Assembly (NCBI GenBank): GCA_025774865.1
Contig: JALGZO010000091.1
Coordinates: 1 to 13,637, forward strand
Direction: 5' to 3'
Length of the DNA stretch: 13,637 nucleotides
DNA from: a bacterium
GTDB lineage: Bacteria > ARS69
Position 1 is the stretch's first letter. Every line of letters begins with the position of its first letter. The position numbers were made by a program, and so were the translations under genes. The notes below the pieces were generated by a model that was not told the DNA's origin, made no database searches, and saw only the letters and a program-made list of their open reading frames with translations. Positions 7,170 to 12,800 of this stretch are shown piece by piece.

Positions 7170-7778
7170 TCAGCTCTGCTCGGGCGCCACCGTGGCCTCG
7201 ATGTGCACCGTCATCGTCACGTCGTTGCCGACCAGAAGCGAACCCGTCTCCAGCGTCTTGCTGAACGAGACTCCGAACTCCTGACGATCGATCGTGCCCG
7301 TCATCTCGAGTGCGGTCATCGGCGTCTTGGTGAACGGGTTCTCGGCGAATCCGTGAATGACGACCTCGAAGTCCACCGACTTTGTCACTCCGCGCATCGT
7401 CAGGTCGCCGGTCAGGACGTACTTGTCACCCTTCTTCTTCGCCGACTTCGACTCGAACGTCAGCTGGGGGTGATTCTCAGTGTCGAAGAAATCGGGACTC
7501 CTGAGGTGTCCGTCGCGCTTTTCGTTGTTCGTGTTCACCGACGCCATCTGCACGGTGCCCGAGACCTTCAGGCTCCCCTCGATGTTCTTCGGATCGACCC
7601 AGACCGCCCCTTCGAACTCATCGAAGCGGCCCGGCACGTTCGCCAGGATGTGCCGAACGGAGAAGACCACCTGGGAGTGCGTGGGATCGACCGGGTACTG
7701 GACGACCTCGGCCATCGCGGACAGCGGTATCGAGGCAGTCAAGGTGAGTATCGTGATCAGGGGCAGCAGGCGATTCAT
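7170..7778 (-). CDS. YceI family exported lipid-binding protein
   Basis: 202 residues, the usual length for YceI proteins. AAAGGA sits eight bases before the ATG. Residues 1-23 are a signal peptide (hydrophobic run LLPLITILTLTASIPL, ending AMA). The mature part shows the family pattern: VDPTHSQVVFSVRH near the start, FDEFEGAVWVDP, the helix stretch NEKRDGHLRSPDFFDTENHP, LTGDLTMRGVTKSVDFEV, and a last strand with VGNDVTMTVHIEA. YceI folds as a lipocalin-like beta barrel that binds polyisoprenoid or fatty-amide ligands in the periplasm. The ligand here and any link to stress are not visible. It is transcribed alone: divergent from the PGI gene (144-bp gap) and convergent with ettA (63-bp gap). 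Confidence 0.93.
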   Translation of the reverse strand: MNRLLPLITILTLTASIPLSAMAEVVQYPVDPTHSQVVFSVRHILANVPGRFDEFEGAVWVDPKNIEGSLKVSGTVQMASVNTNNEKRDGHLRSPDFFDTENHPQLTFESKSAKKKGDKYVLTGDLTMRGVTKSVDFEVVIHGFAENPFTKTPMTALEMTGTIDRQEFGVSFSKTLETGSLLVGNDVTMTVHIEATVAPEQS

Positions 7779-7892
7779 TCGCTCATTCCTTTCGACAAGG
7801 TTTCGTTCGAGACGAGCTTCCGGATCCTAAAACGTCCTACGTACCGACCAGGCCCCTCGCGACCCGCGAAATTGCGGTTCCCCCCGAAAGGT

Positions 7893-7919
7893 GAGAGGAT
7901 CCGCCTCTTTCCAGGAGGC
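7893..7919 (+). promoter_or_regulatory. Competing hairpins over the PGI gene ribosome-binding site
   Basis: GCCTC (7903-7907) pairs exactly with GAGGC (7915-7919), which contains most of the AGGAGG Shine-Dalgarno before the ATG at 7923. The same CCTCT can instead pair with AGAGG (7894-7898), and a flanking G-T wobble extends this to six pairs, freeing the site. The two stems exclude each other. They are short (five to six pairs), so this may be chance. The rest of the 144-bp divergent gap (7779-7922) shows no convincing promoter. Confidence 0.3.
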
Positions 7920-7922
7920 ATC

Positions 7923-9572
7923 ATGGCGCGAGCGTCGACTTCCGGCCGGACAGAACCCCTATCCGCGCTGCGCGGCGACGAGTCGATCGCCCGGGGGACG
8001 AAAGACGCGCTCGACGCGCTGCAGGCCTCGAACATCGTCGCCCGGATCGCGGAGGGGGATCATACGGTCTGGCGCGACGACCCGACCGAAATCGTGGATC
8101 GCCTCGGCTGGCTCACTGTTGCCGATGGGATGCGTGCTGCGGTCTCCGGGATTCGGGAGTTTGCCGAAGGGTTGGCCGCGGAAGGCGTGGAAGACGTGGC
8201 GCTGCTGGGGATGGGGGGATCCTCCCTGGCCCCGGAAGTCCTCCGCCGGACGTTCGGATCGGCCCCGGGATTTCCGCGACTCCACGTCCTGGACACCACT
8301 TCGCCGGCCTGGATTCGGCGGGTGACGGGGTCATTCCGCCCCGAGCTCGGCCACGCCATCGTCGCCAGCAAGTCGGGCTCGACGATCGAGGTCCGGACCC
8401 TGTTCGCGCATTTCGAAAGCGTCGCGGCCGAGGCCGGGGAAGAGCCCGGGAAGCGCTTCACCGCGATCACCGATCCCGGGACCGAACTGGACGCCCTCGC
8501 CGAGGCGAAGGGCTTTCGCCGGACGTTCCGGAATCCTCCCGACATCGGCGGGCGGTACAGCGCCCTGTCGTTCTTCGGCCTGGTGCCGGGTGGCGTCCTC
8601 GGTGTCGACATCATGGGGCTTCTGGATCGGGCGCGGGCCATGGCGGCGCAGTGCGAGCCGGGGGTGGCGGCCGCTTCGAACCCGGGCGCGCTCCTCGGGG
8701 CCCTGCTGGGAGCCGCCGCCCTCGCGGGTCGGGACAAGTTGTCGATTCTCCTCTCGCCGGGGATTTCGTCCTTCGGGTTGTGGGTCGAGCAGCTCGTGGC
8801 CGAGAGCACCGGCAAGGAAGGGCGAGGCATCGTTCCGGTGGTGGACGAGCCGGTCGCGTCGGCCTCGTGCTACGGACGGGATCGCCTGTTCGTCGCGTTG
8901 CGCCTCCACGGCGACGACAACGAAACGCTCGACCGGCAGATCGATTCGCTCGTGACGTCGGGACAGCCGGTGTACACGATCGACGTTCCGGACCGCCTCG
9001 CGCTCGGGGCCGAGATCTTCCGGTGGGAGCTCGCCACGGCGATCGCCGGACACCTGCTCGGCATTCAGCCGTTCGACCAGCCCGACGTGCAGTCGGCGAA
9101 GACTCTCACGTCCGAGATCCTCGACGCCTTGACCCACGGCGAAGCGCGCCCGGAGGCGGACAGCGGCGATCCGGTCGCTCTTCTGGACGAGGTGCGGGAG
9201 GGGGATTTCGTCGGAATCATGATCTACGGCGACCCCGACGAGGAGATCGAGCGCGCCGTGAACGAGCTGCGGCGAGCCCTGCAGGAGTCCCGTCGCGTGG
9301 CGACCACTTACGGAATCGGCCCACGGTTCCTTCACTCCACCGGGCAGCTCCACAAGGGATACTCGAATCGGTGCGCCTTCGTGCAGCTCGTACTCGAAGA
9401 GGCCCCGCTCCCGATTTCCGGAAGATCGTTCGGGTTCGGCGACCTGATGTCCGCGCAGGCGTCGGGCGATCTCCTCGCGCTGCGAGCGGCCGGGAAGCGC
9501 GTCGCGCGGCTCGCTCCGGGCGACTCTCCCGCGGGTTCTCTGCGTCGGCTGGCCGCGAGCGTCGGACCATGA
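7923..9572 (+). CDS. pgi: Glucose-6-phosphate isomerase, stand-alone form of the transaldolase-fused PGI type
   Basis: 549 residues starting at an ATG with AGGAGG four bases upstream. It carries two SIS folds of the phosphoglucose isomerase kind that is normally the C-terminal half of bifunctional transaldolase/PGI proteins (about 950 residues). Landmarks: GMGGSSLAPEV (96-106), LDTTSPAWIRRV (123-134), the sugar-phosphate loop SKSGSTIE (149-156), GGRYSALSFFGLVPGG (209-224), WVEQLVAESTGKEG (287-300), PFDQPDVQ (383-390) and STGQLHKG (472-479). No transaldolase barrel is present: upstream is only a short gap and the divergent yceI-like gene. It would interconvert glucose 6-phosphate and fructose 6-phosphate in the cytoplasm. 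Its TGA overlaps the glucokinase ATG (ATGA), so the two are translationally coupled. From memory the family has HKGG where this has HKGY. Activity is likely but not proven. Confidence 0.88.
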   Translation: MARASTSGRTEPLSALRGDESIARGTKDALDALQASNIVARIAEGDHTVWRDDPTEIVDRLGWLTVADGMRAAVSGIREFAEGLAAEGVEDVALLGMGGSSLAPEVLRRTFGSAPGFPRLHVLDTTSPAWIRRVTGSFRPELGHAIVASKSGSTIEVRTLFAHFESVAAEAGEEPGKRFTAITDPGTELDALAEAKGFRRTFRNPPDIGGRYSALSFFGLVPGGVLGVDIMGLLDRARAMAAQCEPGVAAASNPGALLGALLGAAALAGRDKLSILLSPGISSFGLWVEQLVAESTGKEGRGIVPVVDEPVASASCYGRDRLFVALRLHGDDNETLDRQIDSLVTSGQPVYTIDVPDRLALGAEIFRWELATAIAGHLLGIQPFDQPDVQSAKTLTSEILDALTHGEARPEADSGDPVALLDEVREGDFVGIMIYGDPDEEIERAVNELRRALQESRRVATTYGIGPRFLHSTGQLHKGYSNRCAFVQLVLEEAPLPISGRSFGFGDLMSAQASGDLLALRAAGKRVARLAPGDSPAGSLRRLAASVGP

Positions 9573-10558
9573 TTCTCGCGGTCGACATTGGCGGCACGAA
9601 GATACACGCGGCGCTCTACGAGGTGTCGGGTCATCGACTCGAGAAGAAGTCCGAGTCGCTGCTCGCCACCGCGGACGTCCCGTCGCCCGGCGACGCGCTC
9701 GCGAGCTTCGTACGAGACCACGACTCGGTGATCGAGGCCTGTGCGCTCGGCGTCGCCGGCCCGGTGCTCGGGGACCGTGTCCCCGGTTCGAACCTCCCGT
9801 GGGAGCTGAGAGGAGCGGAGGTCTCGAAGGCGCTCGGCGGCGTTCCCGTCCGCTTGCTCAACGACCTCGAGGCGGCGGGCTACGGCCTCGAGGCGGTCGC
9901 ACACGAAGATCTGGTGACGCTGCAGGCGGGGAATCGGGCGCCCGATGGCAATCGTGCGCTGGTCTCGCCGGGCACCGGACTCGGCGAGACGATTCTCGTG
10001 AAGCGCGACGGCCACTACCGTCCCGTCGTCTCGGAAGCGGGTCACGCGGACTTCGCCCCACGCACGGACGAGGAAGTGGAGCTCTGGCGTTGGCTGCGCG
10101 GCACGTGGGGGCGGGCGACTTGGGAGCGCGTCGTCTCCGGCCCCGGACTCGTGAACGTGTTCCTGTGGCTGCGGGAGTCCGGGCGCGTGACCGACGACTC
10201 CGGCATCGAGGCGCGGCCCGGCGACTCGGCCCCGGCCGCGCTCATCACGCGCGGCGCCCTCGAGGGAGGCTCCGCGATTTGCCGCGAGGCCCTCCGCATC
10301 TGGGTCGACGCGTTCGGCGCGGAGGCGGGCAACGTGGCGCTGCGCGGGGTGACGACGGGTGGCGTGTTTCTCGGCGGGGGGATTCCCGCGCGCGTGCTCC
10401 CGGCCCTGCAAGAGGGCAGCTTTCTTCGGGCGTTCTGCGACAAAGCGCCCCAGGACCGGCTGGCTGCCTCGATCCCGGTGCACGTCGTTCGCGACACGGA
10501 AACGACCCTTCGCGGGGCTGCCATCGTGGCGGCCGAACTGGCCGCCGTCCCGCGCTAG
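9569..10558 (+). CDS. glk: Glucokinase (Glk family)
   Basis: 329 residues, against 321 for E. coli Glk. The N-terminal phosphate-binding loop DIGGTK (6-11) begins right at the start, which supports the ATG at 9569. NDLEA (98-102) holds the catalytic Asp99. SPGTGLGE (133-140) is the second phosphate loop. EAGHADFAP (156-164) supplies Glu156 and His159, matching Glu157 and His160 of E. coli Glk. VSGPGLVNVF lies further on, and a TGGVFLGGGI stretch near the C-terminus completes the ATP-side fold. It is the Glk family (PF02685-like) rather than a ROK kinase, because the ROK zinc cysteines are absent. It phosphorylates glucose to glucose 6-phosphate, the substrate of the overlapping upstream gene. 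There is no good Shine-Dalgarno, so translation probably relies on coupling. The stop shares CTAG with the stop of the opposing gene. Confidence 0.93.
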   Translation: MILAVDIGGTKIHAALYEVSGHRLEKKSESLLATADVPSPGDALASFVRDHDSVIEACALGVAGPVLGDRVPGSNLPWELRGAEVSKALGGVPVRLLNDLEAAGYGLEAVAHEDLVTLQAGNRAPDGNRALVSPGTGLGETILVKRDGHYRPVVSEAGHADFAPRTDEEVELWRWLRGTWGRATWERVVSGPGLVNVFLWLRESGRVTDDSGIEARPGDSAPAALITRGALEGGSAICREALRIWVDAFGAEAGNVALRGVTTGGVFLGGGIPARVLPALQEGSFLRAFCDKAPQDRLAASIPVHVVRDTETTLRGAAIVAAELAAVPR

Positions 10559-12033
10559 ACCGCCCGCATGAAGCGGACATCGTACGCCGGAACCGTCAAT
10601 TCGAGACCAACTTCTCGGAGTTCTCTCCGGTTTCGCTCGAAGCCGTCCCCGGAGGTCAGATCCTCGATCCGGACAGAATCTTCGGCCCCGCCGGGCCGGT
10701 CGAGCGGGATCGACGCGGTGGCATCCCGATCCCCCAGGTTGGCCACCACGAGGACGGTCTCGTCGGCCCCCGACCATCGGCTTCCGACGAGCGCCGCCGC
10801 CGCGTGCTCCCCGGCGGCGTCGACCTCGACCGGGCTCCAGGCTCCCCGGTGGAGTGCGTCGCGCCCCAGGAGTGCGAGCAGCCGATCGTAGAAGCCGCGA
10901 ATCTCCGCGACCTCGGGTTCCCGCGGGGCTCGGCCGAGCTGCACCGGTGTGCGCACCCGACGCCCCTCCACCTGTCCCTCGAAGAAGAAGCGGAGGCCCG
11001 GGAGGGAGTAGGTGACGGCGGCCGCGGCGAAGAGACGCGGTCCGAGCGTCTCGGCCGCGCGAGGCTCGTCGTGGTTCTCTAGGAAGCGCACGCGGGTCGC
11101 GTGGTGGGCGACCGGCCGGGCGACCACGTCCCGGACCCCCGGAACGTCGACGGCGACGAGACGGTCGTAGAGCTCCTTGTCGTAGGCGAAGTCGAACCCG
11201 CGTTCGCAGAGGCGGTCTTCCAGCTCCCAGTAGACTTCGGCGATCAACGTCGACTCGGGATGGTCACGGCGTAGAGCGGGAATCGCTTCGGACCAGAAGT
11301 CACCGGAGCCCGAGAAGCCCCCCCAGGTCGATCCGAACACGTCCTCCAGAACGAGCATCGCCATGTCGCAGCGCATGCCGTCGCAGCGGGCCGCGACGTC
11401 GATCAACTGCGACGTCATCACTTCGCGGGTCTCCGGGCGGCGGTAGTCGAGCTGCACGGTGTCGGTCCAACCGGCGAAGTAGGGATCACGGCCGTGGGCG
11501 AACACGCGCTCCTCGCCGCCCGGTGTCGTATGGACGAACCAGTTTTCCGGTTCACGCTCCACGTCCGACAACGCGCCTCGCACGAATCGATCGGGGTGAT
11601 CGTCGAGCCAGCGGTGGTCGCACGCCAGGTGATTCGGAACGAAGTCGAGGACGAGACCGAGTCCGCGGGCTCGCAGCCGGTCGCGGAACGCCGCCAGCGC
11701 ATCGTCGCCGCCGAGGGACGCCGCCACCGAGTACTCGGCGATGGCGTAGGGCGATCCGTCCACGTCGTCCGGTCGCCAATCGGGCAAGACCCGGGTGTAC
11801 TCGCGCCCGAGCTCCGGGATCCGGAGGGCGAGGTCTCGCGCGGCCGCGCCGGTGTGCCAGACTCCCATCAGCCAGATCCCGTGGAAGCCGCGTGAGGCGA
11901 TTTCGCGGAGCACGGCATCCGGCACGTCGGCGAGCGTGATCGTTCCACCGGCGTCCTCCGCCAGCGCCCGCAGCCACGAGCGCGCCGGAATCTCGAGGAT
12001 CAGGGGGTGAGGCGTCCGACGGAGAAGATTCAT
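10555..12033 (-). CDS. GH13 alpha-amylase-family glycoside hydrolase, cytoplasmic
   Basis: 492 residues from the ATG at 12033, chosen because the family N-terminus (PLILEIPARSWL, then GFHGIWLMGVW) begins there; the frame is open to 12117, but those 28 residues match nothing. The four GH13 regions are present: region I DFVPNH (130-135), region II GMRCDMA with nucleophile Asp223, region III IAEVYW with acid/base Glu266, region IV FLENHDE with Asp322. A short beta domain follows from about 395. There is no signal peptide, so it acts inside the cell, on imported maltooligosaccharides or storage glucan; the exact specificity (amylase, glucosidase or transglycosylase) cannot be read. Glucose it released would feed the convergent glk-pgi pair. 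There is no clear Shine-Dalgarno before 12033. It diverges from an HTH gene and may be controlled by it. Confidence 0.9.
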   Translation of the reverse strand: MNLLRRTPHPLILEIPARSWLRALAEDAGGTITLADVPDAVLREIASRGFHGIWLMGVWHTGAAARDLALRIPELGREYTRVLPDWRPDDVDGSPYAIAEYSVAASLGGDDALAAFRDRLRARGLGLVLDFVPNHLACDHRWLDDHPDRFVRGALSDVEREPENWFVHTTPGGEERVFAHGRDPYFAGWTDTVQLDYRRPETREVMTSQLIDVAARCDGMRCDMAMLVLEDVFGSTWGGFSGSGDFWSEAIPALRRDHPESTLIAEVYWELEDRLCERGFDFAYDKELYDRLVAVDVPGVRDVVARPVAHHATRVRFLENHDEPRAAETLGPRLFAAAAVTYSLPGLRFFFEGQVEGRRVRTPVQLGRAPREPEVAEIRGFYDRLLALLGRDALHRGAWSPVEVDAAGEHAAAALVGSRWSGADETVLVVANLGDRDATASIPLDRPGGAEDSVRIEDLTSGDGFERNRRELREVGLELTVPAYDVRFMRAV

Positions 12034-12091
12034 GGCGGGAGGCTCGCGTCGCGGCGGGTCCGGTGGAATCGATCTCGCGGACTTGTACCAG

Positions 12092-12105
12092 AGGGGCTCG
12101 CCCCT
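12092..12105 (-). other. Leader hairpin upstream of the GH13 gene
   Basis: AGGGGC and GCCCCT are exact reverse complements around a two-base centre, and CCA/TGG just outside could extend the stem past a two-base bulge. It lies 59-72 bp before the GH13 ATG and just upstream of the -35 element of the divergent HTH gene. It may be a leader-RNA structure or simply GC-rich sequence. Confidence 0.3.
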
Positions 12106-12110
12106 GGCGA

Positions 12111-12139
12111 TTGACATCGCGAATCAGTACCTTTTTACT
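12111..12139 (+). promoter_or_regulatory. Sigma-70-type promoter of the HTH gene
   Basis: TTGACA (12111-12116, perfect -35), a 17-bp spacer, and TTTACT (12134-12139, 4 of 6 to TATAAT). A start near 12146 would give a leader of about 22 bases that contains the G-rich ribosome-binding site (GGGGGAGGG, 12155-12163). It is the best promoter in the window by eye. Confidence 0.7.
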
Positions 12140-12143
12140 GATT
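12122..12143. repeat. Perfect 8-6-8 inverted repeat across the promoter, probable operator
   Basis: AATCAGTA, CCTTTT, TACTGATT: 8-bp arms with no mismatch. The dyad covers most of the spacer and all of the -10 of the adjoining promoter, and its right end lies 25 bp before the start of an HTH protein gene. It is strikingly AT-rich against the local background. Position and symmetry suit a dimeric repressor that blocks its own promoter. Which protein binds is inference. It is not a terminator, as no T-tract follows. Confidence 0.65.
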
Positions 12144-12167
12144 GTCTCCTGTCCGGGGGAGGGCGTG

Positions 12168-12800
12168 ATGTCGCTCGAATCACCCGGCGCCGTCCTGCGT
12201 CTCGAAGTGCGCCCCGTCGTAGGCGCCCGTCCCGCGAGCTCCGATCAGATCGACGCCCGCCTCGCGGAGGCAAAGCGTCTCCTGGAGACCGGGGTGGCCC
12301 CGGGCCGTTGGGAACCCGAGGCGCCGCCAGGCGTCCGCGGTCGGATCCGGTTCGAGAGAGCCGCGGATGCGTTCCCGATGCTCCACGATCTTCGGAGTGC
12401 GCTCCGGGCGGACCCGTCGCCGGTGGCGCTCGATCTCGTCGCGGGGCTCGGCGCCGGGGACGAAGCCGAGGGACTGCGCCGGTCCGCGGATGCGGTCCGG
12501 GTGCTCGGACAAAAACGGCGTCAGCTCACGCGGGCCGTGACCGGCGACACGGACGCGGACGTCGTGCTCTCGGCGCTGTGCCGGATGCTCGACAACCTGA
12601 TCGGCGGCTGGACCGACGCCCAGTGGCAAGCGGTCCATCGCCGGGATCGAGGACTCACGCTGCAGCAGATCGGAGAGGAGCTCGGCATCGCGTATCAGAA
12701 CGTGAGCAAGCGCTTGATCGCGGCACGATACTCCCTCTACCAGGATGTGCTCGGCGCGGCCAGCCTCGTGTTCTCCAAGAACACCCGCCCCCGCCTCTGA
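12168..12800 (+). CDS. Small HTH protein, probably SatD-like regulator
   Basis: 210 residues from the ATG at 12168, preceded by GGGGGAGGG. The last third is a clear helix-turn-helix of the sigma-region-4/LuxR kind: GLTLQQIGEELGIAYQNVSKRLIAARYSLYQ (about 162-192). Before it, residues 55-160 recall SatD-family proteins: a degenerate LRSALR stretch, VALDLVAGLGAGDEA, RSADAVRVLGQKRRQ, then MLDNLIGGWTDAQWQAV. The usual N-terminal GDIVDS-type motif is not obvious, so the family call is tentative. There is no signal peptide or membrane segment. It diverges from the GH13 gene across 134 bp that hold its promoter and a perfect dyad, so autoregulation and control of GH13 are plausible. It converges, with a 105-bp gap, on a helical protein gene. 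The gap has only a 5-bp hairpin (12817-12830) and no terminator. Confidence 0.8.
   Translation: MSLESPGAVLRLEVRPVVGARPASSDQIDARLAEAKRLLETGVAPGRWEPEAPPGVRGRIRFERAADAFPMLHDLRSALRADPSPVALDLVAGLGAGDEAEGLRRSADAVRVLGQKRRQLTRAVTGDTDADVVLSALCRMLDNLIGGWTDAQWQAVHRRDRGLTLQQIGEELGIAYQNVSKRLIAARYSLYQDVLGAASLVFSKNTRPRL

Follow-up and report, generated by a model that had tools for sequence, protein, structure and literature searches.

A perfect dyad over the promoter of a SatD-like regulator gene, a candidate lineage-specific operator

The 13,637-nt stretch of bacterial DNA analysed here (the window) contains a perfect dyad that lies across the promoter of a gene for a helix-turn-helix (HTH) protein. A preliminary description of this DNA proposed a strong promoter, an autorepressor and possibly an operator type for a group of SatD-like proteins. 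The locus therefore raises the question of whether the dyad is an operator, which protein would bind it and how widely it is shared.

The regulator gene (12168-12800, forward strand, ATG at 12168) encodes a protein of 210 amino acids and is preceded by a ribosome-binding site, GGGGGAGGG, at 12155-12163 on the same strand. Further upstream on this strand are a -35-like hexamer, TTGACA (12111-12116), and a -10-like hexamer, TTTACT (12134-12139). The dyad, AATCAGTA-CCTTTT-TACTGATT, has no strand and occupies 12122-12143. It is a palindrome of 22 bp with exact arms (8-N6-8) that overlaps the spacer and the -10 of the regulator's own promoter, the place expected for a repressor operator. The consensus -35, the ideal spacing of 17 bp to TTTACT and the exact repeat over spacer and -10 were all confirmed as first described. 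The strength attributed to the promoter was overstated, since its -10 matches the consensus at four of six positions, lacks the -11 A and belongs to a form that is not clearly enriched, and since a standard sigma-70 scan that requires the -11 A called no promoter at TTGACA/TTTACT. The -35 and a spacer of 16-18 bp are present, but TTTACT does not fit TANNNT. In the same genome, TTGACA-N16-18-TANNNT was strongly enriched (63 occurrences vs. 3 for the reversed control), and TTGACA with a TTNNNT -10 occurred 11 times compared with 4 in the control; four of these 11 match TANNNT as well. Judged by these matches, the -10 of the regulator gene is weak. A short inverted repeat 5' of the -35, AGGGGC-TC-GCCCCT, and a similar one in the related genome G002 were set aside because their arms are too short and chance is a likely origin.

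The DNA around the dyad is 68% GC and the dyad itself is AT-rich, which was the reason given for regarding it as unlikely to occur by chance. This argument stands for AT-rich dyads and fails for perfect dyads in general. Perfect dyads with arms of at least 8 bp and gaps of 0-12 occurred in the window at chance frequency (6 vs. 7.0 in dinucleotide shuffles), but no AT-rich perfect dyad of at least 8 bp was found in 100 shuffles of the window and no AT-rich perfect dyad in 186 kb of the organism's own genome. Among shuffles, 2.1% had any such dyad within the 134-bp intergenic region and 0.26% had one inside the 33-nt promoter span; these figures are post hoc and flatter the dyad, because the site was picked after being seen.

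By remote homology the regulator is a divergent SatD-like protein that lies outside the Pfam cut-off. Profile comparison with hhalign of the window protein's group with five SatD (PF16264) proteins gave a probability of 97.2 (E 4.3e-11, 142 columns) and spanned both the cyclase-like and the HTH parts, which bears out the SatD-like assignment of the preliminary description. The PF16264 model did not match the window protein at E values up to 1, nor did it find a match in G000-G004, where G000 is the organism's own genome. Residues D10, S14, R15, G51 and D52 are invariant among the five aligned SatD proteins (D..SR close to the N-terminus, GD in a hairpin); the window group carries E13/R15 and G55/G58, lacks an invariant Asp in that region and is without the SatD GD motifs. 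The C-terminal part is a sigma4-like HTH, whose match to Pfam Sigma70_r4 (E 4.8e-4) was below the cut-off. In the AlphaFold model (mean pLDDT 82, from four sequences in the alignment), this helical HTH region follows an N-terminal domain with a predicted nucleotidyl-cyclase-type fold. The predicted domain aligned with 2qv6 over 119 residues at 3.7 A (VIA-align Z 12.4) and with many structures of adenylyl cyclases and GGDEF domains (Z 10-12). The fold assignment depends on structural realignment of Foldseek candidates; Foldseek alone gave no match to the model at E 0.001, and a PDB sequence search using the window-protein alignment gave nothing convincing. The likeness to class III nucleotidyl cyclases and GGDEF proteins is thus one of fold, at about 10% identity, and catalysis by the predicted domain is unlikely because the beta2-beta3 hairpin has no conserved Asp.

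SatD is familiar chiefly as a name from streptococcal acid tolerance, and none of the papers searched treats SatD as a DNA-binding protein. True SatD genes in other phyla nevertheless carry inverted repeats upstream, often as arrays, around TTGACA promoters. Repeats with gaps of 6, 8 or 10 numbered 45, compared with 11.6 +/- 4.2 in shuffles (z 8.1). As controls, neighbouring genes, some of which may share the intergenic region with SatD, gave z 3.2, and TTGACA promoters of the window's own genome gave z 1.7. The repeats include GTTGGC-N8-GCCAAC in several copies at locus L103, with similar arms at L102, L107 and L114; GTTGGCC-N6-GGCCAAC at SatD promoters; TTTAGC-N6-GCTAAA at L104; ATTGC-N9-GCAAT repeats at L109; GATTGTAT-N6-ATACAATC at L111, with a near copy at L100; and TGAAC-N7-GTTCA at L098 and L115, both of which are without TTGACA. 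Among the SatD loci (L100-L114, L098 and L115), some genera whose proteins are 37-47% identical have arm sequences in common. Extending the SatD search in other phyla yielded a single additional gene. A strict 6-N6-6 dyad centred on the -10 was rejected as a SatD signature, as it occurred in 2 of 12 SatD promoters and 2 of 30 control promoters and the difference was not significant. The promoter repeats suggest that SatD is a transcription factor that regulates its own gene. Since true SatD genes carry such arrays, the wider family may plausibly be autoregulated; autoregulation is a reasonable reading of the SatD genes and, by analogy, of the window gene. The window resembles the SatD genes in having a related protein and an inverted repeat around a TTGACA promoter, and differs in having one unshared dyad where SatD genes have arrays common to relatives, and a protein that the Pfam model does not match and that has no GD motifs.

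Conservation of the dyad was assessed in a phylum sample of five genomes, four of which carry the regulator. No further orthologues were present in this sample, and a wider contig search returned two already-known orthologues and one distant Bacillota fragment. The dyad was absent upstream of all three orthologues (G001, G002 and G003, all from other genera), where the best ungapped matches had 6, 7 and 9 mismatches of 16. At the corresponding place the -35 is TTGACA in G001 and G003 and TCGACA in G002. G002 also retains the flanking block TGGCGATYGACA, but its dyad region could not be aligned. G000, G001 and G002 have the same recognition helix, AYQNVSKRLIAARY, and that of G003 is nearly identical. 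Because the helix is identical in two orthologues, the cognate operator would be expected to persist, and because SatD operator arms remain common down to 37-47% protein identity, absence of the dyad at 53-57% is telling. A scan of the organism's own genome (assembly 92.65% complete) found no second copy with up to 3 mismatches, and a regulon of dyad sites was rejected on this basis. G002 and G003 each contained one site with 3 mismatches, neither at the orthologous gene and both near the chance level. The preliminary description had proposed an operator type for the SatD-like group, to be checked by a search for a conserved dyad at the -10 of orthologues and a genome scan for the regulon, and had itself named absence upstream of orthologues as the result that would speak against it. 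For the group, that is the result obtained, even where the helix is identical, and nothing in the scan pointed to a regulon. These comparisons accordingly do not support an operator type common to SatD-like proteins; the dyad is present in one species out of the four compared, and a shared type cannot yet be claimed. A species- or genus-specific operator at the dyad is possible, and if the window gene is autoregulated like SatD, its cognate site would need to have diverged after the genera separated.

The regulator adjoins a divergent GH13 alpha-amylase-type gene (10555-12033, reverse strand), and this divergent pair is conserved in all four regulator-bearing genomes, which represent four genera. 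The fifth genome has no regulator and one weak GH13 match only. The predicted promoters of the pair, whose hexamers are consensus matches, stand back to back: TGGCGATTGACA contains both TTGACA and the -35-like TCGCCA of the GH13 gene (12105-12110, reverse strand), which abuts it, and a -10-like TACAAG preceded by TGG lies at 12082-12087 on the reverse strand. In G002 TCGCCA is identical and lies with the common block TGGCGATYGACA, the -10 region reads TGATACAAC, and TGGCGATCGACA is retained at an unchanged 17-bp spacing from TG(N)TACAA on the opposite strand. In G003 the -35s of the two genes overlap. Overall, the -35-like elements abut or overlap in three of the four genomes, and conservation within the intergenic region is highest in the block TGGCGATYGACA. 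Beyond the GH13 gene, here and in G002, are genes for YceI, phosphoglucose isomerase and glucokinase; the YceI and phosphoglucose isomerase genes are also present in G003. The neighbourhood from YceI to the SatD-like gene occupies 7170-12800 of the window and is thus kept in G002 and partly in G003. Its gene content suggests a role for the SatD-like regulator in sugar metabolism.

Among about 30 TTGACA promoters read in the same genome, only one has a perfect dyad of at least 8 bp, and it belongs to an ArsR-type HTH gene. This dyad, ATAGGTAAC-GTAGAG-GTTACCTAT, has a 9-N6-9 arrangement over the -10 (L094, 1519-1542, on G000:C267). This promoter and that of the window both have TTGACA and precede an HTH gene, and in both a perfect dyad with an N6 spacer lies over the -10; they differ in arm sequence and HTH family, and the window has the weaker -10. 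The comparison class is that of autorepressed HTH genes with a palindromic operator over the -10, of which L094 is the example in this genome, and by analogy it supports the operator reading in general. The L094 dyad reaches the start codon of the ArsR-type gene (G000:C267, about 2693), and an AHSA1-domain gene comes next. Another TTGACA promoter, L066 1506-1523 (G000:C9), has a 7-N4-7 dyad in its spacer, ACTAGAC-GTTT-GTCTAGT.

The dyad is probably an operator of an ordinary kind. We tentatively favor, at a little short of an even chance, a lineage-specific operator that most likely serves autorepression by the SatD-like protein. A dimeric regulator would bind the dyad, cover the spacer and the -10 of the sigma-70-type promoter and so block RNA polymerase at the SatD-like gene. 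The SatD-like protein itself would be the likeliest binder, with its HTH domain contacting DNA and its N-terminal, nucleotidyl-cyclase-folded domain sensing a signal. Because the divergent promoters are back to back, the same dimer would also sit upstream of the GH13 -35, centred near -57 of the predicted GH13 start, and could act there. An operator is favored because this GC-rich DNA has an exact AT-rich dyad across the spacer and -10, where chance would rarely put one, and because the only comparable promoter found belongs to the ArsR-type gene. Autorepression is favored because the encoded protein is SatD-like and has an HTH and because true SatD genes are enriched for upstream inverted repeats; the divergent pairing in four genera, with both genes missing from the fifth genome (bar the weak GH13 match), adds to this reading. 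It is weakened by the absence of the dyad from orthologues with the same helix, the single copy, the weak -10 and the lack of significance of N6-on-(-10) geometry in SatD promoters. The autorepressor originally predicted is therefore upheld in part: the dyad's position and the promoter repeats of SatD genes elsewhere fit it, but the orthologues do not share the dyad.

Absence of the dyad where the HTH is kept would be accounted for if the operator belonged to a different regulator of this organism, one whose control of the SatD-like gene, possibly together with the GH13 gene, is confined to this lineage. The intergenic region, with its abutting -35 elements, would suit such a shared divergent control region. 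Regulators often have multiple sites, however, and no other copy at 3 or fewer mismatches was present in the 92.65% complete assembly, so that a different regulator would be a local one with a single target; we regard this explanation as unlikely but as a serious rival. Neutral coincidence in an AT-rich promoter patch, with selection on the -35 and its surroundings only, is another serious rival, though fairly unlikely. It draws on the ordinary frequency of perfect 8+8 dyads in the window (6 vs. 7), on the retention of the TGGCGATYGACA block next to a dyad region that is not alignable in G002, and on the post hoc choice of the site. Against coincidence, AT-rich perfect dyads are absent from the 186 kb of genome searched, and the 0.26% event would have to fall exactly on a regulator promoter.

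A role for the dyad as an RNA hairpin, either an attenuator or a stabilising stem in a leader from a promoter further upstream, is very improbable. The 8-bp stem does fold alone in RNA prediction, but it is not followed by a T-run, its fold does not stand out from shuffled sequences (z -1.1) and a scan for terminator-like sites gave none there. With the TTGACA promoter in use, moreover, the dyad precedes the start and stays untranscribed. An RNA hairpin over the ribosome-binding site was also rejected, being no better than shuffles.

An isolated palindrome at one promoter is ordinary, and the wider lead is SatD as a regulator with its own operators. From the promoter repeat arrays, the HTH and the cyclase-type fold predicted for the window relative, SatD appears to be a transcription regulator. 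The dyad finding points to family-wide SatD autoregulation, of which the window alone is no demonstration. A more general scheme, though a doubtful one, would unite SatD and SatD-like proteins in a single superfamily of autorepressors that sense ligands. Each member would combine a nucleotidyl-cyclase-type domain, often degenerate, with an HTH and would act through inverted repeats in its own promoter, the arms varying between genera; the window dyad would then represent the form found in one lineage and would control the divergent GH13 gene of a glucose-metabolism cluster. In Streptococcus pyogenes, satD was reported to be an essential yet accessory gene (PMC11323703), a status that would be explained if SatD represses something harmful.
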